This document shows, piece after piece, positions 9,592 to 34,096 of a DNA stretch of 34,382 nt; the stretch's first letter is position 1; each line of letters begins with the position of its first letter. A program made the position numbers and the translations under genes. Location of the stretch: NCBI GenBank assembly GCA_947476015.1, contig CANJOS010000016.1:1-34382 (forward strand), written 5' to 3'. The notes beneath the pieces are model-generated. The model ran no database searches. It was not told the origin of the DNA and was given only the letters and a program-made list of their open reading frames with translations. Source of the stretch: Comamonadaceae bacterium (lineage in GTDB: Bacteria > Pseudomonadota > Gammaproteobacteria > Burkholderiales > Burkholderiaceae_C).

Positions 9592-9604
9592 GAATTGATA
9601 TTCA

Positions 9605-12634: not shown

Positions 12635-13210
12635 TTAGGATTGAGGTTCTGCTTTTCGATAGAACATGGGGTAATAACGCTGTGTGACGGGGCCATCAAA
12701 CGCCCATGACATGCATTTGCCAACATGGTGCGGCGGCGTGCTGGGCACTTCTTCAGGCAAGCCGGCTTGCTGAGCATTGAACTGGCGGGCTGAAGGGACG
12801 GTTTGGTAAGCGGCGGTGGCCATGTTGAACAGCAATTCGTTCAAATGTGTGCAACCTGCGGTGCCGCCCACGAACTTGGCAATGGTTTTACGCCAACCTG
12901 CGCTCAATGTGCTGCCAATCAATTGATGAATGCCCTTTTGCGATTGACTGCATTCGGGGTGTGGGATGTGGACCATGTCGGTGATCACATCGTGAATTTT
13001 GAAGTCATTGTCGATGGTGAGTCGAATGTTCATTTCGTGAACAGGGTGACCCGCTTCGCGAGGCCCTTGGCTGGGAATGATGAACGCATAGGGTTTGATG
13101 TCGGTCAAGTTGGCTTCGATGTCCCACAAGCCATCCCCCCGTTGGAATCCAGAATAGACCACGGTGCGGGTGTGCGAAAGTTTTCGCGGGGAGGGTGATG
13201 GAAGTGCCAA
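12635..13210 (-). CDS. DUF2889 family protein
   Basis: This protein of about 191 residues is recognised by its N-terminal pattern (RTVVYSGFQRGDGLWDIEANLTD) and an EMNIRLTIDNDFKIHDV segment, both typical of DUF2889, whose function I do not know. The C-terminus is rich in short aromatic motifs (MSWAFDGPVTQRYYPMFY). There is no signal peptide. There is no ATG: a TTG at 13210 has GAGAG seven bases upstream and fits the family start, and a TTG at 13237 is the longest option. It is divergent from the first catabolic operon across a promoter region holding the shared palindrome, so it probably belongs to the same regulon. Such genes are often seen near aromatic or ring-degradation genes (recollection, not checked). 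Confidence 0.75.
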   Translation of the reverse strand: MALPSPSPRKLSHTRTVVYSGFQRGDGLWDIEANLTDIKPYAFIIPSQGPREAGHPVHEMNIRLTIDNDFKIHDVITDMVHIPHPECSQSQKGIHQLIGSTLSAGWRKTIAKFVGGTAGCTHLNELLFNMATAAYQTVPSARQFNAQQAGLPEEVPSTPPHHVGKCMSWAFDGPVTQRYYPMFYRKAEPQS

Positions 13211-13300
13211 TTGCAGACTCTCAGATTTTAATTTCAATTATGACATGATCGATTTGATTTGAAGCAATTCAAGGCTTCGGGCCTCAGGGGGGACATCTGC

Positions 13301-13327
13301 CTAATTGTTCTATTGACAGGACAAATT
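13301..13327 (+). promoter_or_regulatory. Operator-like palindrome, copy 1, before the amidase/PuuE operon
   Basis: This 27-base element has a left arm AATTGTTC (13303-13310) and right arm GGACAAAT (13319-13326) separated by eight bases. The arms pair at six of eight positions. It matches the copy at 21994-22020 at 21 of 27 bases, the first 13 identical. A TTGACA (13313-13318) inside it could be a -35, with a weak GAGTAT 17 bases on (13336-13341). The start codon of the amidase gene is at 13373. The likely binder is the GntR-type protein encoded at 29231 (inference). Confidence 0.6.
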
Positions 13328-13372
13328 GTGCGTGAGAGTATCTTTCACATTCTTTTGAACTCTGAGGTTGCT

Positions 13373-14056
13373 ATGGAACTGTCTGATCAATCTGCCCGTC
13401 AATTGTTTGAACACGTGCAGGCCAATCCCACGCGGAAACGTTTTGGTTTTGGCAAAGTGCCAGCGCTGATCAACATCGATTTGCAAAAGGCCTACACCTG
13501 CGTGGGCGAGTTTGCCACTGCGTATGAAACTGACCCCAAGCAACTCCATTATGTGAATCAACTGGCGGAAGTCTTTCGCAGCAAAGGCTTTCCAGTCGTT
13601 TGGACGTATGTGGCTTACATGGCGTCAGGGGAGGACTGCGGCGTGTGGGGCACGCGCACCAACACGCCAGATTCTTTGCAAAATATCAAAGTGGGCAGTC
13701 GCCGTGCCGAGTTAGACGACCGCTTGGTCATTGATCGCAAGCGCGACATCATCATCAACAAGCGCATGGCTTCCACTTTTTTTGAGACCAATTTGGGTTC
13801 CCTCTTTACCCACCATGGTGTAGACACGTGCGTGATCACAGGCGGCTCTACCTCAGGTTGCGTTCGGGCAACGGTGGTGGACAGTCTGCAAAGAAGTTTC
13901 AGAACCATTGTTCCCATCGAATGTGTGGCCGACAAACATGAGTCGCCGCACTTTGCCAATCTGTACGACATGATGTTGAAGTACGCCGATGTGCTCACCA
14001 TCGCTGAAACTTTGGATCAACTCAGCAAAGTCCCTGGCAAAGGATCTGCAGCATGA
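13373..14056 (+). CDS. Isochorismatase-fold cysteine hydrolase (amidase), N-carbamoylsarcosine-amidase-like
   Basis: This 227-residue cytoplasmic hydrolase carries the family triad Asp36 (NIDLQKAY), Lys130 (INKRMASTFF) and Cys163 (GGSTSGCVRATVVDS). The GGSTSGCVRAT form of the nucleophile loop is typical of N-carbamoylsarcosine amidase/maleamate amidase-like members rather than true isochorismatases, so hydrolysis of a C-N amide or carbamoyl bond is likely. The frame is open from 13259, but the ATG at 13373 has GAGG five bases upstream and lies just after the palindromic promoter region. It is the first gene of an eight-gene operon; its TGA overlaps the next ATG by four bases. The substrate is unknown; the neighbours suggest the amide freed by ring opening. 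Confidence 0.88.
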   Translation: MELSDQSARQLFEHVQANPTRKRFGFGKVPALINIDLQKAYTCVGEFATAYETDPKQLHYVNQLAEVFRSKGFPVVWTYVAYMASGEDCGVWGTRTNTPDSLQNIKVGSRRAELDDRLVIDRKRDIIINKRMASTFFETNLGSLFTHHGVDTCVITGGSTSGCVRATVVDSLQRSFRTIVPIECVADKHESPHFANLYDMMLKYADVLTIAETLDQLSKVPGKGSAA

Positions 14057-14994
14057 CGGGCGCTGCCCAAGCGCTTCTCTCAAAGCGCGACCCTGGTTTT
14101 TACGACTATCTGCCCTACAACGACAGGCCCGTCATACGCTGGCCCAATGGGGCAAGGGTGGCATTTTGGGTGGCCCCCAATGTGGAGTTTTACGAACTCA
14201 ATCCACCGCGCAATCCTGCGCGTGCACCTTGGGCGCGCCCCGCCCCCGATGTACTCAACTATTCCTACCGAGACTATGGCAACCGCACCGGTTTTTGGCG
14301 CATGCTCGATGTCATGAAGCGCTGCAACATGCGCGGCAGTGTGTCACTCAATGTGGCCATGTGCGACCACCACCCCGAGGTGATCAAAGCGTGTGCCGAT
14401 GAAGCTTGGGAGTTTTACTCACACGGCACTTACAACACCCGTTATCTGATGGGCATGAACGAAGCGCAAGAGCGCCAAGTGATTCAAGATTCTATCGACA
14501 CCATTTACAAACACACGGGTCAAAAGTTAGACGGCTGGTTGGCACCCGCCCTCACCTACACGCCCAACACCATGGACCTGGTGGCCGACATGGGCCTCAC
14601 CTATGTCTGCGATTTGTTTCACGACGATCAACCCGGCCCCGTCAAGGTGAAGAAAGGCAAGCTCACCAGCATGCCTTATTCCTTGGAAATGAATGACACC
14701 ATTGTTTACAACGTGAACTTGGTTTCGCCGCGCCGTTATGGTGACATCCTCAAGCGGCAATTTGATCGTTTGTATGAGGAAGGCGAACATTCAGGGACGG
14801 TGATGTGCATACCCCTTCACCCCTACCTCATTGGTCAGCCTTACCGCTTGGCTGCTTTTGAAGAAGCACTGTCCTACATCACGGGGCACGAAAAAGTCTG
14901 GTTGGCCACGGGTCGAGAAATCGCACACTATTACAACGAGCACTATCACGCTGCTTTCACTGCAGCCGGCCACACAGTGGGAGAGGCACCATGA
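14053..14994 (+). CDS. PuuE-like 'polysaccharide deacetylase' family hydrolase 1
   Basis: This 313-residue protein is one (beta/alpha) barrel of the NodB/CE4 superfamily, in the branch that holds the metal-independent allantoinase PuuE. The motif Asn43-Val-Glu45 (APNVEFYE) sits where CE4 deacetylases have their catalytic Asp-Asp. Next come RDYGNRTG (about 73-80, like the YGSRAG of PuuE), Ser-His124-Gly, CDLFHDDQP and a late IPLHPYLIGQPYR histidine. There is no signal peptide, arguing against an extracellular sugar deacetylase. A cyclic amide or ureide is the likelier substrate. Its ATG overlaps the stop of the first amidase gene and its stop overlaps the next ATG, so all are coupled. It is closest in motif style to the third copy (15942). 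Confidence 0.85.
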   Translation: MTGAAQALLSKRDPGFYDYLPYNDRPVIRWPNGARVAFWVAPNVEFYELNPPRNPARAPWARPAPDVLNYSYRDYGNRTGFWRMLDVMKRCNMRGSVSLNVAMCDHHPEVIKACADEAWEFYSHGTYNTRYLMGMNEAQERQVIQDSIDTIYKHTGQKLDGWLAPALTYTPNTMDLVADMGLTYVCDLFHDDQPGPVKVKKGKLTSMPYSLEMNDTIVYNVNLVSPRRYGDILKRQFDRLYEEGEHSGTVMCIPLHPYLIGQPYRLAAFEEALSYITGHEKVWLATGREIAHYYNEHYHAAFTAAGHTVGEAP

Positions 14995-15941
14995 GCGCGA
15001 ATGTTTCTGCTCCTAAGCCATTGCCTGACGATTACCTCGAGTATCCACTGCGCCGCTATGGCATGGACCACGAGCGCTATGAATGGTCGATGCTGCCCCA
15101 GCGCAAACATGTCGTCTGGCCTAACCAAGCACGTGTGGCTTTGTGGGTGGTGCCCGCCCTCGAGTGGTTTCCCTTGAACATGGCGGGTGTGCCTTTCAAA
15201 CCACCCGGCGCCATGCAAACTGCCTACCCCGATTTTCGCCATTACACATTGCGTGACTACGGCAACAGAGTGGGTATTTACAGGATCATGAAGGCCTTGC
15301 AGCGCCATCACATTCCCGCTACGGTGGCGGTCAATGCCGCAGTGGCTGTTCGCTATCCCGCTCTGGTTGAGCAGTGCAACAAGTTGGGCTGGGAGATCAT
15401 GGCCAATGGTTTGGACATGGACCATCTGCATCACGGCGGCTTGTCGGCCGACGAAGAAAAGAAATGGGTGGACCAAACCCTCAGCATCTTGCGCAAGGCC
15501 AGTGGTCAAGCGGTGCGTGGTTGGCTCTCGCCAGCCAAGTCGGAGTCCTTCAACACGCCCGACATTTTGGCGCAAGCCGGCTTGGACTATGTGTGTGATT
15601 GGGTCAACGACGACATGCCTTACCCCATGCACACCAACAGTAAAAACTTGGTAGCCATGCCGCATCCCATCGACATCGATGACTACACCATCTTGGTGAA
15701 CAACCACCACACAGAAAATGATTTCCGTGATCAGCTGATTGATCACTTCGATGTGTTGTACAAAGAGTCAGCCACTGAAGGGGCGCGCATCATGCCCATC
15801 TCCTTGCACCCTTGGGTGATTGGCCAGCCTTACCGCATCAAGGCTTTAGAAGATGCGTTGGCGCACATCATGAGTCACTCAGATGTTTGGGCTGCCACTG
15901 GCTCGCAAATTCTGGATGCTTGGCAAGCCCAAGCCAGTTGA
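14991..15941 (+). CDS. PuuE-like 'polysaccharide deacetylase' family hydrolase 2
   Basis: This 316-residue paralogue of the gene before it has a ~40-residue N-terminal extension (LPDDYLEYPLRRYGMDHERY). It keeps the Glu58 motif (VPALEWF), LRDYGNRVG and SLHPWVIGQPYR. The segment that reads SHG or AHG in the other copies is ANG here, so the His (position 124 in copy 1) is Asn139. Its CDWVNDDMPY motif pairs it with copy 4 rather than copies 1 and 3. The changed residue suggests a different substrate, a non-catalytic partner subunit, or a shared active site. It is coupled on both sides: a four-base overlap upstream, and its stop directly abuts the next ATG. Confidence 0.85.
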   Translation: MSANVSAPKPLPDDYLEYPLRRYGMDHERYEWSMLPQRKHVVWPNQARVALWVVPALEWFPLNMAGVPFKPPGAMQTAYPDFRHYTLRDYGNRVGIYRIMKALQRHHIPATVAVNAAVAVRYPALVEQCNKLGWEIMANGLDMDHLHHGGLSADEEKKWVDQTLSILRKASGQAVRGWLSPAKSESFNTPDILAQAGLDYVCDWVNDDMPYPMHTNSKNLVAMPHPIDIDDYTILVNNHHTENDFRDQLIDHFDVLYKESATEGARIMPISLHPWVIGQPYRIKALEDALAHIMSHSDVWAATGSQILDAWQAQAS

Positions 15942-16844
15942 ATGTCGGCCGAGCGTTTGTCCATTGCCGGTCAAGAGCGTATACCTTATTCCGCGCTGCC
16001 TGAGCGCGCGCCTTTGCGTTGGCCTGAAGGTGCGCGCGTAGCCTTGTGGGTTGCGCCGAACATTGAGCATTACGAATACCTGCCAGAGCAAGTTCGAGTC
16101 CGCAATCCATGGCCTCGAGTGCCACATCCCGATATTTTGGGATACGGTCTGCGCGACTATGGCAATCGGGTAGGGGTGTGGCGGCTGATGGATTTGTTCG
16201 ATACGCTCGAACTGCCCATCACGGTGTCATTGTCGATGTCCGTGCTCGACATGTACCCGGACATTGCCGAAGCCATGCTCAAGCGTCAGTGGGAGTTCAT
16301 GTCGCATGGACTTTACAACACACGCTACCACTGGAATTTGACCGAAGGCGAGGAGCGTGCTGCCATTGAAGAGTGTCAAGAAATTCATGTGCGGCATACG
16401 GGGCAGCGTTTGAAGGGATGGTTTTCACCGGCAGCATCCAATACCTTGCGCACACCTGATCTCGTGGCGGAAAGTGGCATTCAGTACCTCTGCGATTTGT
16501 ACCATGACGATCAGCCCACACCCGTTCATGTGCGAGAAGGTGCATTGATCTCATTGCCCTATTCGATGGAAATTAACGACAGCATTGCCTGGCGACGCGG
16601 TCAAGAATCTGATGCGTTTGCGCAAAAAATGATCGATGAATTTGAGGAACTGTATGCCGAAGGCGCTGTGCATGGCCGTGTCATGAATGTGGCGGTTCAC
16701 CCTTTCATCATGGGGCAACCCCATCGCATTGGTGCTTTGGCCAAAACACTGGAATACATCCGCAGTCACGAGGGCGTTTGGTGCGCCACAGGCTCTCAGA
16801 TTGTCGACTGTTATCAACAACAACAACCCAAGGACAAGCCATGA
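15942..16844 (+). CDS. PuuE-like 'polysaccharide deacetylase' family hydrolase 3
   Basis: This 300-residue protein is the third copy in a row. It shows Asn40-Ile-Glu42 (APNIEHYEY), LRDYGNRVGVWR, Ser-His122-Gly with LYNTRYHW, CDLYHDDQP and VAVHPFIMGQPHR. These motifs resemble copy 1 closely, so the two probably form one subtype. It lacks a signal peptide and the metal motif of true CE4 deacetylases. The ATG follows the previous TGA with no spacer, and the stop overlaps the next gene's ATG. A step in cyclic amide or ureide hydrolysis is the best guess from the PuuE relationship; the substrate is open. Confidence 0.85.
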   Translation: MSAERLSIAGQERIPYSALPERAPLRWPEGARVALWVAPNIEHYEYLPEQVRVRNPWPRVPHPDILGYGLRDYGNRVGVWRLMDLFDTLELPITVSLSMSVLDMYPDIAEAMLKRQWEFMSHGLYNTRYHWNLTEGEERAAIEECQEIHVRHTGQRLKGWFSPAASNTLRTPDLVAESGIQYLCDLYHDDQPTPVHVREGALISLPYSMEINDSIAWRRGQESDAFAQKMIDEFEELYAEGAVHGRVMNVAVHPFIMGQPHRIGALAKTLEYIRSHEGVWCATGSQIVDCYQQQQPKDKP

Positions 16845-17515
16845 GCACCCCCAAAGACTACATTCGTGATTTCATGAGTGAGCCTGTGATCGATGCCAAA
16901 GGCGCTGCCTTGGTGATCATTGACATGCAAAATGCCACGGGTTCGAGACAGGGCGCGTTAGGACGTACTTTGAAAGCCCAAGGTTCAAATGTCGGGGACT
17001 ACCGCTTCGCACGCATTGAGCAATCGGTATTGCCGAGAACCCTGGAATTGCGTGCGCATTTTCATCGCATCAGCCGCCCAGTCATTCATGTGACCTTGGG
17101 CGCCGCGCTGCCCGATGCCAGCGATGCGCCGCGGCACATGCGAAAACTGCTCGCCAGTTGCAACAACCATGTGGGCAGTCCTGAGCATGAAATTTTGGAT
17201 GAACTCAAACCCATCACAGGCGAGCATGTGGTTCGAAAAACCACCGTGGGCGCTTTTGCTTCAACCGCCATCGACAGCTTGCTGCGATCCTTGAATGTGA
17301 ATCAAATTTACATGGTCGGCGTGTCGACCAACATGTGTGTGGAGAGCACTGCGCGTGAGGCAGCGGATCGAGGCTATCAAGTGACCTTGGTGGAAGATGC
17401 TTGCGGCACCACCTTTGAAGAGCTGCATCAGGTCACGATGCGCAATTTTCAAAGATTGTTTGGACGCGTGACGTCCACAGCGCAAGCTGTGTCGGAATTG
17501 AAGGTGCCCACATGA
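16841..17515 (+). CDS. Isochorismatase-fold cysteine hydrolase 2 (RutB/carbamoyl-amidase-like)
   Basis: This 224-residue protein has the triad Asp28 (VIIDMQNATG), Lys133 (VVRKTTVGAF) and Cys166 (GVSTNMCVESTAREA). The STNMCVESTAR loop is the form seen in ureidoacrylate amidohydrolase (RutB) and similar hydrolases, unlike the SGCVRAT loop of the first amidase, so the two are not a recent duplication and should act on different amides. A frame runs up to 16778, but the ATG at 16841 overlaps the previous TGA as at most junctions here and gives a normal N-terminus. The next gene's ATG overlaps its TGA by four bases. Confidence 0.88.
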   Translation: MSTPKDYIRDFMSEPVIDAKGAALVIIDMQNATGSRQGALGRTLKAQGSNVGDYRFARIEQSVLPRTLELRAHFHRISRPVIHVTLGAALPDASDAPRHMRKLLASCNNHVGSPEHEILDELKPITGEHVVRKTTVGAFASTAIDSLLRSLNVNQIYMVGVSTNMCVESTAREAADRGYQVTLVEDACGTTFEELHQVTMRNFQRLFGRVTSTAQAVSELKVPT

Positions 17516-18294
17516 CAAGCGTTAAGAAAAAAATTCTGGTGGTGGTGCCCTTTGCCATGTCACCAGAAAATTTAGCCTTGCGTCAAGCCCAACTCAAGGG
17601 CATTGATTTGTCACCTGACTTGGTGTTTGAATTTCGCACCGTCAAAGCGGGGCCAGTCAACTACTCAAGCCATCACGATTTTGTATTGGCAGATGCGGCC
17701 AATTTTGAGGCAGGGTGTCGTGCGCAAGACGAAGGTTTTGCGGCAGTCTGCATCGACACCATGAGCGACTCAGGGGTGGCGGCACTGCGATCAGTGCTCG
17801 ATATTCCCGTCTTTGGCCCTGGCAAAGTGTCGATGCTTGCAGCCTTGATGTTGGGCGACCGATTCTCCATGTTGACCCTGGCCAACCGCTGGAAGCCGCT
17901 CTACAAAAAGGCCTTGGATGAATTGGGCATGCATCACAAATGCGCTTCAGTTCGTTCCATTGAACTGTCTACAGACAATCAAGCTTTGTTGTCCGGCAAA
18001 GAAGAGGATGTTTTTCCCTTGCTGGAACAAGCCGCTTACGAAGCCATTGAAAAAGATGGTGCCGAAGTCTTGATTTTGGGCTCAACCACCATGCACCAAT
18101 CGCACATCTATTTAAGCCAACGTTTACCGGTGCCCGTCATCAACCCTGGTCCCTTAAGTTACAAAATGGCAGAAGCCGCGTTGGGATTGGGTTTGTCGCA
18201 AAGCCGCAAGGCTTATCCCCGCCCCATGCACCCTCGCCTAGACATGTTGCAAGACATGATGAGTGCGGCGAAGCAGTCAGTGAATCGGACCTGA
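17512..18294 (+). CDS. Asp/Glu/hydantoin racemase-superfamily protein with one catalytic Cys
   Basis: This 260-residue protein has two alpha/beta lobes. The superfamily (hydantoin/allantoin racemase, Asp/Glu racemase, maleate isomerase) normally uses two cysteines, one per lobe. The first is present as Cys80 in AAVCIDTMSDSG. At the second site the usual GC-T/A-x-M motif reads GSTTM, with Ser191 in place of Cys. This may change a racemase into a one-Cys enzyme, such as an isomerase or decarboxylase-like activity. The context between amidases and an oxygenase fits isomerising an amide or unsaturated acid. It starts inside the stop of the preceding amidase gene; a 39-base gap follows. Confidence 0.82.
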   Translation: MTSVKKKILVVVPFAMSPENLALRQAQLKGIDLSPDLVFEFRTVKAGPVNYSSHHDFVLADAANFEAGCRAQDEGFAAVCIDTMSDSGVAALRSVLDIPVFGPGKVSMLAALMLGDRFSMLTLANRWKPLYKKALDELGMHHKCASVRSIELSTDNQALLSGKEEDVFPLLEQAAYEAIEKDGAEVLILGSTTMHQSHIYLSQRLPVPVINPGPLSYKMAEAALGLGLSQSRKAYPRPMHPRLDMLQDMMSAAKQSVNRT

Positions 18295-18333
18295 TCGAGT
18301 TCAGAATGTCAGAAATCTTGTGGGAGTGAAAGC

Positions 18334-19158
18334 ATGCCTAAATTATTGAGTCCTGCCCAAGTTGAGGGGTATGCGCGTGATGGGTATGTGTCTCCCATTG
18401 ATGTCTTGAGTGGCAAAGAGGCGATGACCTTCCGACAAGATTTGGAAGAATGGGAAAAACAACGTGGTCAAGCCATTGATTTTCCTGAGAAGTCAAAAAG
18501 CTATCTCTTGTTCAAGTGGGCGGATCAGTTGGTGCATCACCCGTGCATTTTGGATGCGGTGGAAGACGTGATTGGCCCTGATATTTTGGTATACCACTCG
18601 ACTCTTTTTTTGAAAGAGGCCAACACCCCCGCCTACGTGCGCTGGCATCAAGACAGCACTTATTTTTATTTGTCTCCGCATTTGCACGTGACTGCTTGGG
18701 TAGCTTTAAGCGATGCCAGCGTGGCTGCGGGTTGCATGCAAGTGTTGACGGGGAGTCATCAGTGGGGCGCTTTTGAACACGATGACAAACCCGAGCCAAT
18801 GAACATGATTCGACGTGGGCAAGGCATCAGCGACCGATTTGATGATGCGAAGGGCGTCTTCATTCCGGTCGGCCCCGGCCAGATGTCGCTGCATCACACT
18901 GACCTGGTGCATGCCTCAGGCAGCAATACAACAAATGACAGACGCATAGGATTTGCCATCAGTTACATCCCTGCACATGTCAAGCCTGTAGGCGCAGTGA
19001 AGCCCTCTGCTTTGTGCGTGCGGGGTCGAAGCCATGGCAACTTTTTGGAAGAGCAGCGCATGCAGCATCCCTTGTCAGACGAGGCATACAAATCGCACCA
19101 AAGTGCCTTGGCCCTTTTTAGAGCCCTGCAAGATGCTGGCTTCAAGGAAACAGCATGA
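18334..19158 (+). CDS. Phytanoyl-CoA dioxygenase (PhyH)-family Fe(II)/2-oxoglutarate oxygenase
   Basis: This 274-residue protein has a double-stranded beta-helix fold with the iron triad His105-x-Asp107 (RWHQDSTYFY) and His193 (DLVHASG). Arg204 (NDRRIGFAISY) is placed to hold 2-oxoglutarate. Bacterial PhyH members hydroxylate or demethylate many small molecules, so the name does not mean a CoA substrate. GGAG lies seven bases before the ATG. It starts 39 bases after the racemase-family gene and overlaps the next ATG by four bases. It probably carries out an oxidation that prepares the substrate or removes an N-alkyl group (inference). Confidence 0.88.
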   Translation: MPKLLSPAQVEGYARDGYVSPIDVLSGKEAMTFRQDLEEWEKQRGQAIDFPEKSKSYLLFKWADQLVHHPCILDAVEDVIGPDILVYHSTLFLKEANTPAYVRWHQDSTYFYLSPHLHVTAWVALSDASVAAGCMQVLTGSHQWGAFEHDDKPEPMNMIRRGQGISDRFDDAKGVFIPVGPGQMSLHHTDLVHASGSNTTNDRRIGFAISYIPAHVKPVGAVKPSALCVRGRSHGNFLEEQRMQHPLSDEAYKSHQSALALFRALQDAGFKETA

Positions 19159-19550
19159 CCACAAGCGCCTTGAATGCAGCCCAAATGGTGGCCATGGTAG
19201 AAACCTATTTTGCAGCTGTTGATCGCAAAGATGTGACGGGCACCTTGGCCTGTTTTAGGGCAGAAGCAAAATTTTCCATTGCCAATCATGACTTGCTGTA
19301 CGCAGGTCGCGAGCAAGAATTGCGGGGCATGTATGAGCGTCTCAACCAGCGTTATGCGCAAGTTTGGCACGGCAACTTCACTCACACCGTAGACGTTGCG
19401 GCACAGCGAATTGCCAGCCGCTTCAGGGTGGAGAACATCACCCACCATGGTGAAAAATTGGTTAAAAATAATTGCAATTTTTTTGAATTCCAAGATGGCC
19501 AATTCATCTCGGTTGCTGTCTACATGAGTGGCGAAAATTCCCTCAGTTGA
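19155..19550 (+). CDS. NTF2/SnoaL-fold small protein
   Basis: This 131-residue protein has the cone-shaped alpha+beta pattern of NTF2-like proteins. It starts with a helix (AAQMVAMVETYFAAVDRKDVTGTLACFRAEAKF), as in SnoaL-type polyketide cyclases and ring-hydroxylating-dioxygenase beta subunits. The C-terminal strands (FRVENITHHGEKLVKNNCNFFEF) follow. No catalytic residue can be assigned with confidence. It is coupled to the PhyH gene by a four-base overlap and ends the operon, 34 bases from the convergent PrpD gene. It could be an isomerase or hydrolase for the PhyH product, or a binding protein. Confidence 0.75.
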   Translation: MTTSALNAAQMVAMVETYFAAVDRKDVTGTLACFRAEAKFSIANHDLLYAGREQELRGMYERLNQRYAQVWHGNFTHTVDVAAQRIASRFRVENITHHGEKLVKNNCNFFEFQDGQFISVAVYMSGENSLS

Positions 19551-19584
19551 AACTTGGGTTGAATTTTTTATTTTGAAAATTGAG

Positions 19585-20940: not shown

Positions 20941-20961
20941 GGGGCCTGTCTTTCGGAGTAT

Positions 20962-21858: not shown

Positions 21859-21980
21859 GTTGGGGCAAGTGATTGCGTCCGTGGTGCGGTCGTTGACACG
21901 TCAAACAAGTTGCGAAGTGATTTGAAAAATTTAAATTTCAAAACTTAAGGAATTCTCCGCTTGACTTCACGAAACTATTG

Positions 21981-22020
21981 TTGCACAGTATCCCTAATTG
22001 TTCTATGAATGGAACAATTT
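21981..22020 (+). promoter_or_regulatory. Promoter with overlapping palindrome (copy 2) before the ABC/catabolic operon
   Basis: A -35 TTGCAC (21981-21986), 17-base spacer and -10 TATGAA (22004-22009) form a plausible sigma70 promoter. The palindrome has perfect eight-base arms, AATTGTTC (21996-22003) and GAACAATT (22012-22019), with eight bases between, so it covers the -10 and the start point; bound protein would repress. The element matches copy 1 (13301-13327) at 21 of 27 positions over 21994-22020. It also lies 136 bases from the divergent PuuE-like gene 4 and may control that operon too. Confidence 0.65.
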
Positions 22021-22056
22021 AATTTACCCCCCCAACTTCTTCATTGAGGAATTACC

Positions 22057-23274: not shown

Positions 23275-23285
23275 TTCAACGCCTA

Positions 23286-26708: not shown

Positions 26709-26711
26709 AAC

Positions 26712-27479: not shown

Positions 27480-27483
27480 TTGA

Positions 27484-27801
27484 ATGACCATGCCTGCTCT
27501 GCCCCTTGCCCATTTGGCCAGCGTCATTCGGAGCAAAAATGCGGGGCCTTTGTGCGTGACGATTGATTTATTTTTTCGCGACACCCAAGCCTATGAGCGT
27601 GCTGTTCAAAGCGAGGCTTTGAAAGCCCCCTCCATCGCTTTCCATTACGGGCTGCATGCATCGCAAATCCGGCGATTCGAATTACCAAGAATCATGGCCA
27701 TCAAGCTTTCAATGCCCCGTGCAGTTTGCGCAGGCGATCCTGGTGATGGTGATCTGTATGGAGCGCAGCAGCATGCCCCGTTGCTGCGGTTGATGCTGTG
27801 A
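27484..27801 (+). CDS. DUF4387 family protein
   Basis: This 105-residue protein matches the DUF4387 pattern closely: an IRSKNAGPLCVTIDLFF segment near 16-32, then MAIKLSMPRAVCAGDPGDGDLYGAQQHAPLL at the C-terminus. The family is nearly always next to an AtuA/DUF1446-type gene, as here, and some long AtuA proteins have a C-terminal domain that may correspond to it. It is probably the small subunit of a complex with the next gene product. Its biochemical role is unknown to me. It is coupled by a GTGA overlap to the AtuA-like gene. Confidence 0.85.
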   Translation: MTMPALPLAHLASVIRSKNAGPLCVTIDLFFRDTQAYERAVQSEALKAPSIAFHYGLHASQIRRFELPRIMAIKLSMPRAVCAGDPGDGDLYGAQQHAPLLRLML

Positions 27802-29234
27802 AGTCGTTGCTTGAAAACACTGCCGTTGCTCATTTGTTGAGGAGCCATCGACCCGGAACCGAGCGCCTGCGTGTGTTGTCAGCTTCGGGCCAGTTGGGTT
27901 TTGGAATTGTCAAAGAATCTTTTGAACGTGGCTTGCTGCGACGTCCGCATTTCATTGGCTGTGACATGGGCTCCATTGATCCTGGCCCGTATTACTTGGG
28001 TTCAGGGCAGATGGCCGCACCTCATGAGATGGTCCGTCGCGACTTAGAGATGGTCTTGCGCGCAGCACGTGAGTTGAATGTGCCCTTGATCATTGGCAGC
28101 GCAGGAACAGCAGGGGCAAAGCCTCATTTGGAAGCCACGCTGGCTTTGCTGCGAGAAGTGGCAGAAGCCAACGAGTGGTCATTCCGAGTCGCCACCATTG
28201 GCAGTGATGTGCCGAGAAACGTTCTGATCAAGGCCCGCGCAGAGGGCCGCCTGAAAGCCTTGGACGAATCAGAGACCTCCTTTCATTTGAGCTTGCCAGC
28301 AGATCAAGTCATGAAAGATGCCAGTCACATCGTGGCCCAATGTGGCAGCCACACTTTCATCCAAGCTTTGCAGTCGATGCCCGATGTGTTGATTGCAGGG
28401 CGCTCGTGTGACACCGCCATCTTTGCCGCCTTGCCCCAAATGTTGGGCTACGATCCCGCGCTTTCATTGCACATGGCCAAGATCATTGAGTGCACTTCTT
28501 TGTGTTGTGTGCCTGGTGGACGTGATGCCATCTTGGCAGAGTTGGGTGAGACCGACTTCATTCTGGAGAGCCTGAACCCAAATGCACATGCCACGCCCGC
28601 TTCTGTGGCCGCACATGCACTTTACGAACAAGCCGATCCTTGGGTCGTTGAAGAACCCGAGGGTACTTTGGATTTGCATCAAGCACACTACACGGCTGTG
28701 GATGAACATCGCACGCAAGTATCGGGTGCGCAGTGGCGACCGCGTGCCCTACCCACCTTCAAGGTGGAAGGCGCTTTGCGTGTAGGGTCGCGGGCTGTCT
28801 TGTTGGCAGGCGTGGCCGACCCCACCATGGTCGAACAAATGCCCAGTGCACTTGAGGAAGTGAGTCGGCGTGTGCATCAGTTGTTGCCTGGTGCTTGGAC
28901 CATCGTGTCGCATCTGTATGGCCAAGGCGCAGTGAGAGAACTGCCTGAGGCACAACGAAGTTCTCATGAGATTGGTTTGGTCATTGAGTTTTTGGCGCCT
29001 GATGCAGGCATGGCCAAAACGGCCGCTTCAGTGTTCAAACAAAACCTGTTGCATTTTGGTTTTACAGGTCGATTGACCACAGGCGGAAACTTGGCGTTTG
29101 CATTCACGCCGAGCGAGATCGATGCCAACGATTGTTATCGATTTGTCCTCTATCACGTGATGGAGGGTGTTCGTGCCGATGAACTCTTCGTCATTGAGGC
29201 TCACGACTGGAACTTTCAAGGGGTTCCCGCATGA
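27798..29234 (+). CDS. AtuA-like (DUF1446) family protein
   Basis: This 478-residue protein is of the AtuA/DUF1446 type, named from the acyclic terpene utilization cluster. Recognisable parts are VLSASGQLGFGI near 28-39, the acid-rich CDMGSIDPGPYYLGSG near 55-70, GSAGTAGAKPHLE near 100-112 and the AGRSCDTAIFAALP stretch near 195-208. The GTG start overlaps the DUF4387 stop. No terpene or CoA gene is present, so the atu name should not be carried over. It likely works with DUF4387 on an organic acid; the mechanism is not known to me. It is followed by the regulator gene with a four-base overlap. Confidence 0.85.
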   Translation: MKSLLENTAVAHLLRSHRPGTERLRVLSASGQLGFGIVKESFERGLLRRPHFIGCDMGSIDPGPYYLGSGQMAAPHEMVRRDLEMVLRAARELNVPLIIGSAGTAGAKPHLEATLALLREVAEANEWSFRVATIGSDVPRNVLIKARAEGRLKALDESETSFHLSLPADQVMKDASHIVAQCGSHTFIQALQSMPDVLIAGRSCDTAIFAALPQMLGYDPALSLHMAKIIECTSLCCVPGGRDAILAELGETDFILESLNPNAHATPASVAAHALYEQADPWVVEEPEGTLDLHQAHYTAVDEHRTQVSGAQWRPRALPTFKVEGALRVGSRAVLLAGVADPTMVEQMPSALEEVSRRVHQLLPGAWTIVSHLYGQGAVRELPEAQRSSHEIGLVIEFLAPDAGMAKTAASVFKQNLLHFGFTGRLTTGGNLAFAFTPSEIDANDCYRFVLYHVMEGVRADELFVIEAHDWNFQGVPA

Positions 29235-30022
29235 CGGCCCGTTTGCCTCTGACCAAATACCACCAAATTTACCTGGTGCTGCGTGAACAATTGTTAGAAG
29301 GCCGGTTTGTCAAAGCCATGCCTGCAGAAATTGAATTGGCCAAACAGTTTGGCGTGGGTCGCGTGACTGTTCGCCATGCCATGGAGCAACTGGTAGCAGA
29401 AGACTTGATTGTTCGTGTGGCTGGGCGAGGCACCTTTCCTAAACCCCAGTCCACCCCGCCCTTGAACTTGGGTGCTGCAGGCCTTTCGCAGCCCACACGA
29501 TTGGCGGGTTTGATGGAAAATATTGTGAGTGCCAGTCGCGCCACCACTGTCAAACTACTGGATTGGCGCACCATCAATGCCCCAGAAGATGTAGCGAATG
29601 CCTTGCAAGTTCCTTTGGGAATCTCTGTGAAAAAGGCGGTGCGTTTGAGAAGCTCGCGTGAAGGGCCGATGTCTTACATCACAACCTACGTCCCTTTTAA
29701 TTTAGGCGCAGGTTTTACGCGCCGAGATTTGTCTGCCAAGCCCATGCTGCAGTTATTGAGTGAACAGGGTGTGAGCTTAGGTCGCGCACAACAAACCATT
29801 TCAGCTCGGCAGGCCGATGCCCGTGTGGCAGAGGCCTTAGGTGTGGCCATTGGCACTGCCTTGTTGGCTGTGAGGCGACGTGTATTTGACGCAGATGAAA
29901 AGCCAGTGCAATGGTTAGAGGGGCTTTACCGGCCTGATCGTTACGAATACCAACTCGAAGTCTCAAGCATCGGTAATGTGGATGCTCGAGTTTCGATGAA
30001 AGAAGAAAAGGCCAAGAATTGA
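29231..30022 (+). CDS. GntR-family regulator, HutC/UTRA subfamily
   Basis: This 263-residue DNA-binding regulator has an N-terminal winged helix-turn-helix (about 10-75; AKQFGVGRVTVRHAMEQL) and AGRGTF wing. A UTRA effector domain (about 90-245) contains SYITTYVPF and the ISARQADARVAEALG segment. HutC-type members bind a small acid or amino-acid derivative and usually repress their own cluster. It sits in the middle of the 13-gene operon rather than upstream, coupled on both sides. The palindromes at 13301 and 21994 are the natural candidate targets, though half-site spacing differs from classic short HutC operators. Confidence 0.9.
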   Translation: MTARLPLTKYHQIYLVLREQLLEGRFVKAMPAEIELAKQFGVGRVTVRHAMEQLVAEDLIVRVAGRGTFPKPQSTPPLNLGAAGLSQPTRLAGLMENIVSASRATTVKLLDWRTINAPEDVANALQVPLGISVKKAVRLRSSREGPMSYITTYVPFNLGAGFTRRDLSAKPMLQLLSEQGVSLGRAQQTISARQADARVAEALGVAIGTALLAVRRRVFDADEKPVQWLEGLYRPDRYEYQLEVSSIGNVDARVSMKEEKAKN

Positions 30023-31284
30023 GAACATACCAAACGCTTGCTCAAAAACTCATTGCCAAGGCCGCTGGCCGTTCTCATGTTGCTGTGGGAGAAATTGTGA
30101 ACTGCCAAGTTGATTTGGCCATGTTTCATGATTCGTCTGGACCCAGACGTCTCAAGCCCATGCTAGAAGAGTTGGGCGCACAAATTTGGGACAAGTCACG
30201 TGTGGTTTTGATCATGGACCATTACGTGCCCGAACAAGACGATGATTCACGCCGTATTGTCCGTATCGCGCGCGAATGGGCTGTTGAGCAAAAACTGCCG
30301 CACGTGTATGACAGTCAAGGCATTTGTCATGTGGTCTTGCCACAAAAGGGGCATCTCAAGCCAGGTATGTTTTGTGTGGGCGGTGACTCTCACTCACCCA
30401 CGGGCGGTGCGCTGGGCACTTACATGTTTGGCGTCGGTAGCACTGAAATGCTAGGGGTTGTGGTGACAGGCCAAATTTGGGTGCGTGTTCCGCAAACTTA
30501 TCTGATGCGTTGGCACCATCGCCTTCAAACGGGTGTCACTGCCAAGGACATGATGCTGCACATGATTGGCAAATTTGGCATGAACGGTGGTGAATACCAA
30601 GCGGTTGAATTTGGTGGTGAAGCGGTGCAAGCCTTGTCTATGCAGGAGCGTATGACGATGTCCAACATGAGCGCAGAAATGGGCTCTCAAGTGGGCTTGA
30701 TTGCCCCTGATGAAGTGACGCGCGCATGGCTTGCAACCACAGGCGCCCAAGATGTTCATGTGGAAGGCTGGCACACCGACGAAGGTGCAGATGCCGTGAT
30801 TCATGACTTTGATGCTGCCACGCTGGTACCTCAAGTGGCCGCACCGCACAGTCCCGCCAATACCCGCGCAGTAGGTGAGTTCCAAAACACCCCGATTCAG
30901 GTCGCCTACATTGGGGCTTGCACGGGAGCGAAGTTAGACGATTTGCGAGCGGCAGCGCAAGTCTTGAAAGGGCATCAACTGCCTTCAGGTGTGCGTTTGA
31001 TGGTGGCGCCCGCCAGCTTGCATGATCAGGCGCAAGCTGAAAGTGAAGGGGTGATGCAATCGCTTCGAGAAGCCGGCGCAGAAGTTCTGCCCACGTCTTG
31101 CGGCGCGTGTTCGGGATATGGTGGCAGCATTCCTGATGGTGCCAATGTGATTGCCACTACGGCGAGAAATTTCAAGGGCCGAATGGGCTCTGCCACTGCT
31201 CAGGTTTATTTGGCTTCTCCTTATACCGTGGCAGCTTCTGCTATCAGAGGTTTTATCACAGACCCACGCGAGGTTCTGGCATGA
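30019..31284 (+). CDS. Aconitase-family hydro-lyase, large subunit (LeuC/DmdA/homoaconitase type)
   Basis: This 421-residue protein is of the size of small two-subunit aconitase homologues. The [4Fe-4S] ligands Cys301 (GACTGAK), Cys361 and Cys364 (CGACSG) are intact, as are MDHYVPEQD and the GGDSHSPTGG motif. The late loop reads ARNFKGRMG where LeuC usually has NRNF, and CGACSGYGGS is unlike CGPCLG. A role in leucine synthesis is unlikely since no leuA or leuB is near. It probably hydrates or dehydrates an aconitate- or dialkylmaleate-like acid with the next protein. The start is TTG overlapping the regulator stop (TTGA), supported by the family N-terminus and an AAGG upstream. Confidence 0.88.
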   Translation: MRTYQTLAQKLIAKAAGRSHVAVGEIVNCQVDLAMFHDSSGPRRLKPMLEELGAQIWDKSRVVLIMDHYVPEQDDDSRRIVRIAREWAVEQKLPHVYDSQGICHVVLPQKGHLKPGMFCVGGDSHSPTGGALGTYMFGVGSTEMLGVVVTGQIWVRVPQTYLMRWHHRLQTGVTAKDMMLHMIGKFGMNGGEYQAVEFGGEAVQALSMQERMTMSNMSAEMGSQVGLIAPDEVTRAWLATTGAQDVHVEGWHTDEGADAVIHDFDAATLVPQVAAPHSPANTRAVGEFQNTPIQVAYIGACTGAKLDDLRAAAQVLKGHQLPSGVRLMVAPASLHDQAQAESEGVMQSLREAGAEVLPTSCGACSGYGGSIPDGANVIATTARNFKGRMGSATAQVYLASPYTVAASAIRGFITDPREVLA

Positions 31285-31781
31285 GTGCGATTCACAAAGT
31301 TTGGAAACTGGGCGCCGATATTGACACGGATCAATTGGCGCCAGGGGCGTACATGAAATTGGGTATTCACGACATCGCGAAACATTGCCTAGAAGGTGTT
31401 CGTCCCGAATTTGCGGCCCAAGTGAAAGTTGGGGATGTGTTGGCGGCAGGTCCAAATTTTGGCATTGGCTCTTCCAGAGAGCAGGCCGCAGATGCTTTGG
31501 TCAAATTGGGCGTGAAAGCTGTCATTGCGCCCTCTTATGGTGGCTTGTACTTTCGAAATGCATTCAATTTAGGCCTGTTATTGCTCACCTGCAAGCAAGC
31601 TTCCTCGCTGGAAGAAGGAGAGGCCATCTCCTTGGATTTAAAACAATGGGCCGTCGTGCGAACCAACGGGCAACGCTTGGCTTGCGATCCCATACCTGAC
31701 TTTCTGGTAGCCATGGTAGAAGCCGGTGGTCTGTTACCACAACTCAAACAGCGTTTGCAATCTGAAAGAGATTCATCATGA
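31281..31781 (+). CDS. Aconitase-family hydro-lyase, small subunit (LeuD type)
   Basis: This 166-residue swivel-domain subunit has LGADIDTDQLAPGAY near 10-24 and FGIGSSREQAADAL near 66-79, both strong LeuD-type signatures. The loop after the first motif, which sets substrate choice in isopropylmalate and homoaconitate enzymes, reads AYMKLG here and does not match forms I know. It forms the heterodimer with the large subunit encoded immediately upstream by a four-base overlap. The exact substrate is unknown. Confidence 0.9.
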   Translation: MSAIHKVWKLGADIDTDQLAPGAYMKLGIHDIAKHCLEGVRPEFAAQVKVGDVLAAGPNFGIGSSREQAADALVKLGVKAVIAPSYGGLYFRNAFNLGLLLLTCKQASSLEEGEAISLDLKQWAVVRTNGQRLACDPIPDFLVAMVEAGGLLPQLKQRLQSERDSS

Positions 31782-33178
31782 AACATCAACAACCGCCCCG
31801 AATTGTGCGAGCAGACAAAATGCCCGTGAACACCCCCGAGGTGCCAGTCTGCATCGTGGGTGGTGGCTCATGCGGCTTGACGGCGGCCATTGCATTGCGA
31901 ACGACTGGCATCGATGTTTTGGTCCTTGAACGCGATGAATCAGGAACGGGATCTACGGCTTTGTCGTCAGGCTTTATTCCAGCCGCGGAAACACGCCTGC
32001 AAAAATCTTTGGGTATCCATGACTCTTTTCAATTGCTCATTGATGACGTCATGAACAAGGCGCATGGGCAGGCGCCTTTGCATTTGGTGAAGGCTTATGT
32101 CGAAGCGACCACCGAAGCGATCGACGCGCTTGAAAAAATGGGTTTGCCTTTTGAGATCGTAGACGGATTTTTGTATCCGGGCCATACCGTGCGGCGCATG
32201 CATACCATGCCTGAGAAAACAGGCGCCACGCTCATGACCCGTTTGGCGCAAGTTGCCAATGATTTGGGTACCGATGTTTTGGGCCAAGCCTTGGTCTGTG
32301 AGTTGTGGGTCGATGCCCAAGACCATGTTCTGGGCGTAGGCTATCAACGTCCTGATGGGACGATTGAACATTTGTCATGCCAATATTTGCTATTGGCTTG
32401 CAATGGTTTTGGGGGCAACACAGACATGGTCAAAGAGTTGTTGCCTGAAATGGCCAATGCTGTGTTTGCAGGACACCAAGGCAACGATGGCACTGCCATT
32501 CAATGGGGTCGCCAATTGGGTTTGCAAATGGGGGACCTTGATGCCTACCAAGGACATGGTTCCTGGGTAACCCCCCAGGGCGCGCTCATGACCTGGGCCT
32601 TCATCATGGAAGGGGGCGTGCAAGTCAATGCCTTGGGCAAACGCTTCAACGATGAAACCGGTGGCTATTCTGAAGCGGCCATGCATGTGCTCAATCAACC
32701 CGGTAGCATTGCTTGGAATGTGTTTGATGCGCCCTTGCTCAAATTGCTGCGAAGTTTTCCTGATTTCCGCGATGCAGAGTCAGCAGGTGCCTTGCGAACA
32801 GCATCCGACGTCGCAAGCTTGGCTGCCATGGTGGGTTGTGATGTGGCCACTTTGCAGAGCACCCTGAATGAAGTAAGGGAAGGTCATACCGACGCCATGG
32901 GCAGAAGCTTCACACGCTCTTTGCAGGCGCCCTATCACGCCATCAAAGTGACTGGCGCGCTGTTCCACACGCAAGGCGGTTTAGAGGTGGATGCCCAATG
33001 TCGTGTGATGAAAATCAATGGTCAGACCTTGCATAACTTGTATGCAGCAGGCGGTGCGGCGAGAGGTGTTTCGGGTCGAGGTGCCGATGGCTATTTGGCT
33101 GGCAACGGTTTGCTCAGCGCAGTGGGCGGCGGTTGGTTGGCAGCCAAAGACATTGCCCGTCATTTTCAAACACATTGA
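31778..33178 (+). CDS. FAD-dependent fumarate-reductase/tricarballylate-dehydrogenase-like flavoprotein
   Basis: This 466-residue FAD_binding_2 protein has the dinucleotide fold Gly28-x-Gly30-x2-Gly33 (VGGGSCGL) ending in LVLERDE, and a capping domain. The active-site segment FHTQGGLEVD (His397) is as in fumarate reductase flavoproteins and tricarballylate dehydrogenase, and AARGVSGRGADGYLAGNGL near 427-445 binds FAD. There is no signal peptide or heme motif, so it is cytoplasmic. It would desaturate a di- or tricarboxylate to a substrate for the LeuC/LeuD pair, or run the reverse. It is coupled to leuD-like by a four-base overlap. Re-oxidation partners are not encoded nearby. Confidence 0.88.
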   Translation: MKHQQPPRIVRADKMPVNTPEVPVCIVGGGSCGLTAAIALRTTGIDVLVLERDESGTGSTALSSGFIPAAETRLQKSLGIHDSFQLLIDDVMNKAHGQAPLHLVKAYVEATTEAIDALEKMGLPFEIVDGFLYPGHTVRRMHTMPEKTGATLMTRLAQVANDLGTDVLGQALVCELWVDAQDHVLGVGYQRPDGTIEHLSCQYLLLACNGFGGNTDMVKELLPEMANAVFAGHQGNDGTAIQWGRQLGLQMGDLDAYQGHGSWVTPQGALMTWAFIMEGGVQVNALGKRFNDETGGYSEAAMHVLNQPGSIAWNVFDAPLLKLLRSFPDFRDAESAGALRTASDVASLAAMVGCDVATLQSTLNEVREGHTDAMGRSFTRSLQAPYHAIKVTGALFHTQGGLEVDAQCRVMKINGQTLHNLYAAGGAARGVSGRGADGYLAGNGLLSAVGGGWLAAKDIARHFQTH

Positions 33179-33229
33179 GTGTGACCCTGCACCCAACTAA
33201 ATTCAGTCTCTTCAAGGAAATATCTTTTT

Positions 33230-34096
33230 ATGTCTCTCGCTCAAAGATTGCAGCAACCCAGTGCCTTGTTGGCGCCAGGTATCTACGACGCACTCACAGC
33301 GCTCATTGCAGAGCAGGCTGGATTTGAGGCGCTTTATTTGTCTGGGGCTTCAATTGCCTACACGCGATTGGGACGCTCTGACATTGGCTTGACCACCGCC
33401 AGCGAGGTGGCCAACACCTTGGCCAATATCACTGACCGCGTGCGAATTCCGATCATTGTGGATGCCGACACAGGGTTTGGCAACGCGCTGAACATGCAGC
33501 GCACAGTCAGAGATTTTGAGCGTGCCGGTGCAGCCATGATTCAAATTGAAGATCAAACTTTCCCCAAACGCTGTGGCCACTTGGATGGCAAGGGGGTGGT
33601 TCCCGTACAAGAGATGCAAGGCAAAATTCGAGCGGCTTTAGATGCTCGACGCAGCAATGACACACTGATTTTGGCGCGCACAGATGCTTTGGCAGTCGAA
33701 GGATTGGACGCAGCGCTAGAGCGTGCTGAAAAGTATTTAGAATGTGGCATTGACGCGCTTTTCATTGAAGCTCTGCGAACACCAGAGCAAATGAAAATTG
33801 CTTGCGATCAGTTTGCTCATCGCATTCCACTCTTGGCCAATATGGTGGAAGGTGGCAAAACCCCCATCTTGAGTGCCACAGCCTTGAGTGACATCGGTTT
33901 CAAAATTGTTATTTTTCCAGGGGGTACAGCGCGGGCCGTGTCACACATGCTGCAAGGCTACTACAGCAGCTTGAGAACGCATCAAACTACGGCACCTTGG
34001 CGGGAAAAAATGTTGGATTTCGACCAACTCAATGAGGTGATCGAAACGCCCGCCTTGTTGGCACTGGGCAAGACCTATGATGGCAAAAATACCTGA
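33230..34096 (+). CDS. Isocitrate lyase/PEP mutase superfamily C-C lyase
   Basis: This 288-residue TIM-barrel protein has the metal-site Asp78-x-Asp80 (VDADTGFG), Glu107-Asp108 (QIEDQTFPKR) and the catalytic loop Lys113-Arg-Cys115-Gly-His117. These make it a cleaving lyase rather than a PEP mutase. Relatives include methylisocitrate lyase, 2,3-dimethylmalate lyase and oxaloacetate decarboxylase. It would split the hydroxy acid made by the aconitase-type pair into pyruvate or glyoxylate and a smaller acid. AAGGA lies eleven to twelve bases before the ATG. It ends the operon, 12 bases from the convergent gene at the window edge. Confidence 0.9.
   Translation: MSLAQRLQQPSALLAPGIYDALTALIAEQAGFEALYLSGASIAYTRLGRSDIGLTTASEVANTLANITDRVRIPIIVDADTGFGNALNMQRTVRDFERAGAAMIQIEDQTFPKRCGHLDGKGVVPVQEMQGKIRAALDARRSNDTLILARTDALAVEGLDAALERAEKYLECGIDALFIEALRTPEQMKIACDQFAHRIPLLANMVEGGKTPILSATALSDIGFKIVIFPGGTARAVSHMLQGYYSSLRTHQTTAPWREKMLDFDQLNEVIETPALLALGKTYDGKNT

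Follow-up and report, generated by a model that had tools for sequence, protein, structure and literature searches.

Several described pathways resemble parts of the locus reported here. Nicotinate fermentation in Eubacterium barkeri has a 2,3-dimethylmaleate tail with DmdAB and dimethylmalate lyase, the maleamate/maleate (Nic) pathway has a maleamate amidase and a Cys-containing maleate isomerase, and the tail of the methylcitrate cycle leads through 2-methylaconitate and 2-methylisocitrate to PrpB. Citramalate lyase is represented by the CmlAB structures 9erq and 9evf. In the cyclic imide hydrolase routes of Pseudomonas putida and of Aspergillus nidulans (HxnM-HxnN), a PuuE-related ring opener is followed by an amide hydrolase, according to excerpts of PMC9304392. 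Here, we analyzed a stretch of 34,382 nucleotides (the window; contig CANJOS010000016.1 of assembly GCA_947476015.1, from a Comamonadaceae bacterium with a host genome of 2.8 Mb that is 79% complete), which carries a three-operon island whose gene families were confirmed by profile searches (Pfam, NCBIfam; Table 1). The island, which a GntR protein would control, probably encodes a general route from a cyclic imide through a substituted malate to cleavage by a lyase, and we tentatively put forward hematinic acid as its substrate.

The island shares elements with each of these systems. Like the imide hydrolase routes it has PuuE-related proteins and an amidase; unlike them, it pairs two PuuE-like proteins (PuuA and PuuB) with an isochorismatase-fold amidase (iso1), and continues with a hydratase and C-C lyases. 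A LeuCD-type hydratase and a PEPM-superfamily lyase recall the tail of nicotinate fermentation, whereas the proposed imidase front end and a link to glutaryl-CoA dehydrogenase (gcdH) set the island apart; neither methylitaconate isomerase nor upstream nicotinate genes were found among the annotated genes of the window. With the methylcitrate tail it has PrpD-family and PrpB-like genes in common and, in the proposed route, pyruvate and a dicarboxylate as products, the proposed intermediate being the next higher homologue. Unlike the methylcitrate cycle, the island has no annotated methylcitrate synthase, and its product would be glutarate rather than succinate; the classical cycle was rejected because the scores fall below the equivalog cut-offs for PrpB (292 of 354 bits) and for PrpD (35 of 950 bits, with the one PrpD model that matched). 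DUF4387 and AtuA-like subunits are shared with CmlAB, and cleavage of citramalate by the island pair is putative. Finally, iso1 shares its amidase group with 4l07, which we take to be a maleamate amidase; unlike the Nic pathway, the island has a hydratase and a lyase in place of the Cys-containing maleate isomerase. The enzyme families are all known, while their combination, the regulation and the substrate proposed here are new to the literature covered: among the papers listed from the open-access literature (subscription journals lay outside the coverage) we found neither these three nor any described bacterial pathway that finishes the degradation of maleimides or hematinic acid, nor a paper on the solved citramalate lyase or on CmlA/DUF4387.

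The first line of evidence is the linkage of the genes in relatives. A PuuA search of genome contigs returned 412 relatives. The 80 best loci were retained, and 50 of their 80 genomes, selected mainly because their contigs were longer, were searched further; L-numbers denote fetched loci or stretches and G-numbers genomes (G000 is the window's own). Open reading frames (ORFs) in the relatives were picked by a codon-usage score, with starts that may be misplaced. The iso1 gene lay directly 5' of puuA in 71/71 loci with enough sequence, and puuB directly 3' of puuA in 73/74. In 26 of the 50 puuA genomes, a PEPM homologue (E ≤1e-40) lay no farther than 25 kb from puuA, against 1.9 expected from PEPM homologue numbers and genome sizes. 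LeuC at ≥74% identity occurred in 28/50 puuA genomes compared with 9/250 family genomes, where the nine include the own genome and two partial matches and the two genome sets differ in phylogenetic make-up; LeuC homologues, found in 30 puuA genomes, were linked to puuA in 22. Stretches of under 20 kb that hold iso1 or puuA together with ABC genes and LeuC were recovered from 19 other genomes (L127-L135, L137, L139-L146 and L150, from 35 regions fetched, mostly around LeuC). A compact form in Caballeronia, Chitinasiproducens and Burkholderia (L075, L077, L078) comprises iso1, puuA, puuB, the racemase-family gene, prpD, gntR, LeuCD, FAD and PEPM, and an apparent split of the island in G082 proved to be a contig break between DUF4387 and AtuA. 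The nearest PuuA relatives found are in Burkholderiales and Comamonadaceae bins (98%) and in Limnohabitans sp. Rim11 (96%); their record titles, taken alone, point to lakes. An earlier note on this DNA had read the region as one catabolic island, to be checked by a gene-neighbourhood search and to be given up if the two plus-strand operons never co-occurred elsewhere. The opposite was found, with both plus operons linked in the 19 other genomes.

The ring opener is not fixed in such clusters. Among 17 LeuC clusters without puuA, some of which are truncated by the contig, six carry an AllB/hydantoinase-type amidohydrolase (L034, L035 and L039 by profile; L156, L159 and L161 by similarity) and 11 do not. 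The AllB-type clusters hold LeuCD and ABC genes and mostly also FAD, PEPM and GntR genes like those of the island. Two unrelated ring-opening families thus precede a hydratase, an FAD enzyme and a lyase of matching kinds, which argues that ring opening is coupled to cleavage of a malate-type product. The later steps vary as well: 10 of the 80 puuA loci have a LeuC and/or PEPM neighbour that differs in type from the one in the window. Beside iso1-puuA-puuB in L103, L110, L112, L113, L116, L117, L123 and L124, LeuC is closer to the Microvirga (L124) LeuC than to that of the window, and in the two that were profiled (L112 and L124) it passes the isopropylmalate-dehydratase cut-off; PEPM is of another type in L105, L110, L117, L118, L123 and L124.

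Both plus operons are preceded by a palindrome near TTGTTCTATnnATAGAACAA. A pattern derived from the site at the iso1 operon, so that this site itself counts among the matches, was found four times in the window (both strands) against 0.23 expected, and 0 of 100 shuffles reached four. Of 47 loci in relatives (L047-L150, with some genomes represented twice), 45 have the palindrome no more than 600 bp 5' of sbp. Neither operator showed a sigma-70-type promoter in simple consensus scans. The GntR protein of the island is a putative regulator that would bind the palindrome; in the L035 cluster, which lacks PuuE genes, a GntR gene whose product is 54% identical lies 24 bp from the same kind of palindrome.

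The same operator leads to a gene outside the window. A third copy of the palindrome in the own genome (G000:C2:20336-20355; L162:9937-9956) lies 63 bp before gcdH, divergent from msrA. A half-site pattern, scanned over 12 genomes, occurs at seven places in the own genome. These were scored with a matrix built from 16 island sites, from which the two sites of the window and both orientations of the third site had been left out: the third site reached 32.1 bits and the window's island sites 27.1 and 30.6 bits, compared with ≤17.5 bits at the other four places. At equal base frequencies, the chance of ≥25 bits is 2.8e-9 per position. The gene that follows was first recognised as an acyl-CoA dehydrogenase, and glutaryl-CoA dehydrogenase was then predicted from the chemistry of hematinic acid; it matches solved glutaryl-CoA dehydrogenases at E 1.7e-193. 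In a matrix scan of gcdH upstream regions, 36 regions came from 35 further puuA genomes, and five of them (L165, L166, L181, L187, L188) have sites of 13.5-28.6 bits, compared with 0 of 19 control genomes, where the best score was 0.5 bits; 300 shuffles of one gcdH upstream region reached at most 9.2 bits with the first matrix. We treated msrA as coincidental to the regulon, since it also flanks gcdH in control genomes without the operator. It was also seen adjoining PEPM in the L034, L035, L036 and L156 clusters.

In four relatives gcdH adjoins the island itself (L080, L081, L194, L196). The order in L192, on the same contig as L081, is LysR, gcdH, a succinate-glutarate-CoA-transferase-like gene and then the operator with iso1; L080 has the same order, with an unprofiled gene at the transferase position. 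In L194, PEPM is followed by a porin, an ETF subunit, LysR, gcdH and a CoA-transferase-like gene, and in L196 gcdH likewise comes after PEPM, so that these two loci hold LeuCD, FAD, PEPM and gcdH together. In the AllB-type clusters L035 and L156, gcdH lies about 0.7 and 1.1 kb from gntR. The earlier proposal of a pathway wholly without CoA steps is not supported, given the island palindrome at the host gcdH, the adjoining gcdH of the four relatives and the CoA-transferase-like gene in the two that were checked.

At the front of the route, imidase activity of PuuA is proposed by analogy with HxnM, which excerpts of PMC9304392 describe as a cyclic imidase of the PuuE family that opens a six-ring imide, with 64% identity to the P. 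putida cyclic imide hydrolase homologue and a structure like that of HP0310. The AF2 model of PuuA, the one PuuE-like protein modelled (pLDDT 79.7), has the PuuE fold; its best Foldseek matches are the PuuE allantoinases 1z7a and 3cl6, with HP0310 (3qbu) lower. All four PuuE-like proteins that had been counted in the window are matched by TIGR03212, and three of them by Pfam Polysacc_deac_1. With 71-157 bits, they fall far short of the allantoinase equivalog cut-off (424.6); none of them qualifies as a true allantoinase, and an allantoin pathway was rejected for this reason. The motifs SHG-x-YNTRY and CDL-x-HDDQP are kept in PuuA and PuuC, and in the alignment PuuB is without SHG. Single ORFs with a PuuA-like and a PuuB-like half are present in the own genome (645 residues; G000:C83, L044 2573-4450), which has 10 PuuA matches in all, and in G205 (640 residues), with a 634-residue ORF in L043; such fused frames suggest that PuuA and PuuB work as a complex. 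For iso1, the ORF is listed from 13259, and reading of the sequence places the likely true start at ATG 13373. Besides 4l07, it matches N-carbamoylsarcosine amidases in the PDB (E 4e-27 and 2.5e-26).

For the later steps, LeuC and LeuD pass the TIGR01343 and TIGR02087 family cut-offs. With TIGR00170 (cut-off 560), the best piece of the island LeuC scores 144 bits and a separate LeuC at G000:C15 scores 768; leucine biosynthesis was rejected on both counts. Allantoin and leucine, the known substrates that had been named as counter-evidence, are thus not supported. The FAD protein in the window retains the motifs GKRFNDE and HTQGG. Matches of PEPM in the PDB include 9hra (E 8.7e-57) and the 2,3-dimethylmalate lyase 3fa3 (E 2.8e-47). 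The DUF4387 and AtuA-like genes, both homologous to CmlAB subunits and adjacent in the window and in relatives, look like a second lyase that was missing from the earlier gene list; in structural alignment, the AtuA-like protein is 34% identical to the citramalate lyase A subunit.

From these enzyme families we infer the following reactions. A substituted cyclic imide would be taken up by the ABC importer and opened by PuuA with PuuB, and iso1 would hydrolyse the half-amide with release of ammonium. Saturated rings would be desaturated by the FAD enzyme, the resulting type of substituted maleate would be hydrated by LeuC/LeuD, and the substituted malate would be cut by the PrpB-like lyase to a 2-oxoacid and a carboxylic acid; for other substituents, the DUF4387/AtuA pair may perform the C-C cleavage. 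The presence of gcdH in the regulon or cluster of some genomes makes glutarate the most likely acid and pyruvate the most likely 2-oxoacid. These two products point to pent-3-ene-1,3,4-tricarboxylate as the opened substrate, one CH2 longer than 2-methylaconitate. The lyase substrate would be HOOC-C(OH)(CH3)-CH(COOH)-CH2CH2COOH, the next higher homologue of 2-methylisocitrate, and its dehydrated form, with the vicinal carboxyls closed to an imide, would be hematinic acid (3-methyl-4-carboxyethyl-maleimide). Hematinic acid and dihydrohematinic imide are propionate-bearing ring fragments from oxidised heme, bilins and chlorophyll. The sequence would run from imide to half-amide, 'homo-2-methylaconitate', 'homo-2-methylisocitrate' and then pyruvate plus glutarate, with dihydrohematinic imide entering through the tricarballylate-dehydrogenase-like FAD enzyme.

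Taken as a class, the opening of a cyclic imide or amide by PuuE-like enzymes, removal of nitrogen by an amidase, and hydration and cleavage of a substituted maleate had already been suggested in the earlier note, and the new evidence supports that outline. Its speculative candidate of a tetrapyrrole-derived maleimide fits the new evidence best; its other candidate, pyridine carboxylates passing via cis-aconitamide, would give no call for glutaryl-CoA dehydrogenase. The identification of hematinic acid itself, drawn from the named families and general chemical knowledge, has in our judgement a little less than an even chance of being right. We are similarly guarded about the fuller picture, in which the island may constitute a complete pathway for hematinic acid and dihydrohematinic imide, gcdH may belong to the same GntR regulon, and the AllB clusters may do likewise.

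Several observations weigh against this reading. The gcdH operator is absent from 31 of the 36 puuA-genome regions (≤5.4 bits), close relatives G251 and G253 among them, and only 3 of 50 genomes (G269, G271, G274) have gcdH at 25 kb or less from puuA. Moreover, gcdH is almost universal, with 45/50 puuA genomes and 55/60 family genomes carrying it, so that its mere presence proves nothing. The glutarate-CoA-transferase-like proteins of L192 and L194 score 457 and 555 bits against an equivalog cut-off of 750. A strict palindrome within 320 bp before iso1 was found in only 27 of 71 loci. Where PrpB has TEFG-TP, PEPM has EGGKTP, which we take to be nearer to dialkylmalate and oxaloacetate lyases. 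At the thresholds used, 11 of the 50 puuA genomes gave no LeuC match (1e-50) and three gave no PEPM match (1e-40), many of these genomes being incomplete. Within the first-fetched flanks, LeuC, PEPM or FAD was seen in only 8 of 27 loci with ≥9 kb on both sides; 15 more end inside the ABC operon and four show neither, one of which (L096) is continuous with ABC genes farther out. Lastly, the roles of puuC, puuD, iso2, PhyH, SnoaL, SDR, the racemase-family gene and the PrpD-family gene fall outside the minimal route.

The alternative that survives best, while still unlikely, is that the substrates are dialkylmaleimides without a carboxyl side chain, such as methyl-ethyl-maleimide or methylmaleimide. 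They would yield pyruvate or 2-oxobutyrate together with acetate, propionate or butyrate, in the manner of the nicotinate-fermentation tail that runs through dimethylmaleate. The LeuD/DmdB family call, the 2,3-dimethylmalate lyase among the PEPM matches and the citramalate-lyase homologues all agree with such substrates. With four PuuE-like and two amidase genes in the island, these imides may also be used alongside the main substrate. No glutaryl-CoA dehydrogenase would be needed for them. Excerpts of PMC7318184 place these imides in a product scheme and cite maleimides and hematinic acid from senescent leaves and lake sediments; in the leaves of that study itself, hematinic acid was found and maleimides were not detected.

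We regard as improbable a second alternative, in which PuuAB and iso1 convert glutarimide or another simple six-ring imide directly to glutarate, with LeuCD, FAD and PEPM acting on another, linked substrate. It would account for gcdH and the CoA-transferase-like gene, which stand directly beside iso1-puuA in L192, as gcdH does in L080, and it agrees with the opening of a six-ring imide by HxnM (excerpts of PMC9304392). Over some 20 kb, three loci (L098, L121, L122) have iso1-puuA-puuB but none of LeuC, PEPM, FAD and sbp, and at the applied thresholds neither LeuC nor PEPM was matched in G282, the genome of L098. What glutarimide does not account for is the linkage of LeuCD and PEPM: PEPM near puuA far exceeds expectation, L194 and L196 carry the hydratase, FAD and lyase genes together with gcdH, and different LeuC types retain the hydratase step.

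A hydantoin or ureide pathway, in which a PuuE-like or AllB-like hydantoinase, a racemase and an N-carbamoyl amidase would yield an amino acid, is likewise improbable: the racemase-family gene, the near-equal similarity of iso1 to N-carbamoylsarcosine amidases, the AllB-type enzymes of the sister clusters and a Hydantoinase_B gene adjoining puuB in L121 speak for it, and the low allantoinase scores of the PuuE proteins, the lack of a role for LeuCD, PEPM and gcdH, and the racemase-family protein itself speak against it. The latter gene was seen in 38 of 80 loci, many of which end early. Its product has Thr and Ser aligned with the two cysteines of 3qvj that are Ser in 3qvk, presumably the catalytic cysteines of hydantoin racemase, and these replacements are conserved in 41 homologues of 55-95% identity. 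The family membership given earlier as hydantoin/maleate racemase stands, and a hydantoin or allantoin racemase or maleate isomerase step was rejected, both expected Cys being missing. In L121 (7868-17380), iso1-puuA-puuB lies between JmjC-type and Hydantoinase_B genes, with a CaiB-type CoA-transferase close by.

Table 1. Features of the window in order of position, with strand and the basis of each assignment
Feature	Position	Strand	Basis or remark
Rieske LigXa_C oxygenase and glutamine-synthetase-like gene	8077-10966 (glutamine-synthetase-like 8077, Rieske 9605)	minus	
DUF2889 gene	12635-13237	minus	adjoins miaB; outside island
Palindromic operator before iso1 operon, TTGTTCTATTGACAGGACAA	13305..13324	no strand	48 bp 5' of iso1
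iso1, isochorismatase-fold amidase, N-carbamoylsarcosine/maleamate-amidase group	13373..14056	+	Pfam PF00857; PDB 4l07 E 2.2e-31
puuA, PuuE-like cyclic amidohydrolase, proposed imidase	14053-14994	+	Pfam Polysacc_deac_1; TIGR03212 E 1.5e-40
puuB, PuuE-like partner of puuA	14991-15941	+	Pfam Polysacc_deac_1; TIGR03212 E 1e-39
puuC, third PuuE-like, accessory	15942-16844	+	Pfam Polysacc_deac_1; TIGR03212 E 5.6e-46
iso2, isochorismatase-fold hydrolase, biuret-hydrolase/RutB-like	16841-17515	+	Pfam; PDB; NCBIfam 82.5 bits (cut-off 370)
Asp/Glu/hydantoin-racemase-family protein	17512-18294	+	Pfam; alignment to 3qvj/3qvk
PhyH-family oxygenase, accessory	18334-19158	+	Pfam
SnoaL-like small protein, accessory	19155-19550	+	Pfam
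MmgE/PrpD-family, methylcitrate-dehydratase-like	19585-20940	minus	Pfam
puuD, fourth PuuE-like, divergent	20962-21858	minus	TIGR03212 E 6.6e-20; no Pfam match
Second palindromic operator, TTGTTCTATGAATGGAACAA	21998..22017	no strand	between divergent puuD and sbp, 39 bp 5' of sbp
sbp, substrate-binding protein, branched-chain-type ABC importer	22057-23274	+	Pfam PF13458
ABC importer, two permeases and two ATPases	23398-26708	+	Pfam
SDR, short-chain dehydrogenase	26712-27479	+	Pfam
DUF4387, homologue of citramalate lyase subunit B (cmlB)	27484-27801	+	PDB 9erq_B E 2.4e-19
AtuA-like, homologue of citramalate lyase subunit A (cmlA)	27798-29234	+	PDB 9erq_A E 6.5e-91; Foldseek 9evf TM 0.84
GntR/UTRA regulator	29231-30022	+	Pfam
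LeuC/homoaconitase-family hydratase, large subunit	30019-31284	+	TIGR01343 408 bits, cut-off 385.7
LeuD/DmdB-family hydratase, small subunit	31281-31781	+	TIGR02087 154 bits, cut-off 109
FAD dehydrogenase, flavocytochrome-c/tricarballylate-dehydrogenase-like	31778-33178	+	Pfam; NCBIfam, under cut-offs
PEPM/isocitrate-lyase-superfamily C-C lyase, nearest methylisocitrate lyase PrpB	33230-34096	+	TIGR02317 292 bits, cut-off 354

The extent and contents of the island agree largely with the earlier description. Profiles bear out the two isochorismatase-fold amidases, the ABC importer, the LeuC/LeuD-type hydratase, the FAD enzyme and the lyase; the start of iso2 was read from the sequence as ATG 16841, the most likely one. 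Of the range 12635-34096 given before, the gene set is present, and the first part proved to be the DUF2889 gene beside miaB. The Rieske gene at 9605, previously counted in the system, is not conserved with the island: no counterpart was found in five of the five relatives that show a close miaB (L050, L051, L052, L055, L071), these being the usable ones among the 80 loci, with L050, L052 and L071 extending less than 2 kb past miaB. It was rejected as a pathway member, since it is not beside miaB in relatives. Other Rieske genes were seen near iso1-puuAB in L059, L108, L112 and L113, and an oxygenase front end may thus exist elsewhere; in L108, L112 and L113 the gene is of the Rieske LigXa_C type (profiled in L112) and lies 5' of iso1-puuA-puuB, with TctC receptors close by. 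In L065, HPPD-like, TIM-barrel, lyase and CMD genes adjoin iso1, with similar sets in L087-L090; the L065 set looked like a neighbouring protocatechuate-type set. The accessory genes puuC, puuD, iso2, PhyH, SnoaL, SDR, PrpD and the CmlAB-like pair may widen the range of the island to other ring substituents.

Chlorophyll is made and degraded at a scale of 10^12 kg per year, and hematinic acid has been found in leaves (excerpts of PMC7318184). If the proposed route is true, the island would provide a gene marker for a late step in the recycling of tetrapyrrole carbon and nitrogen. It would also give the DUF4387/AtuA lyases a physiological setting, and would represent a one-carbon-longer analogue of the methylcitrate-cycle tail.

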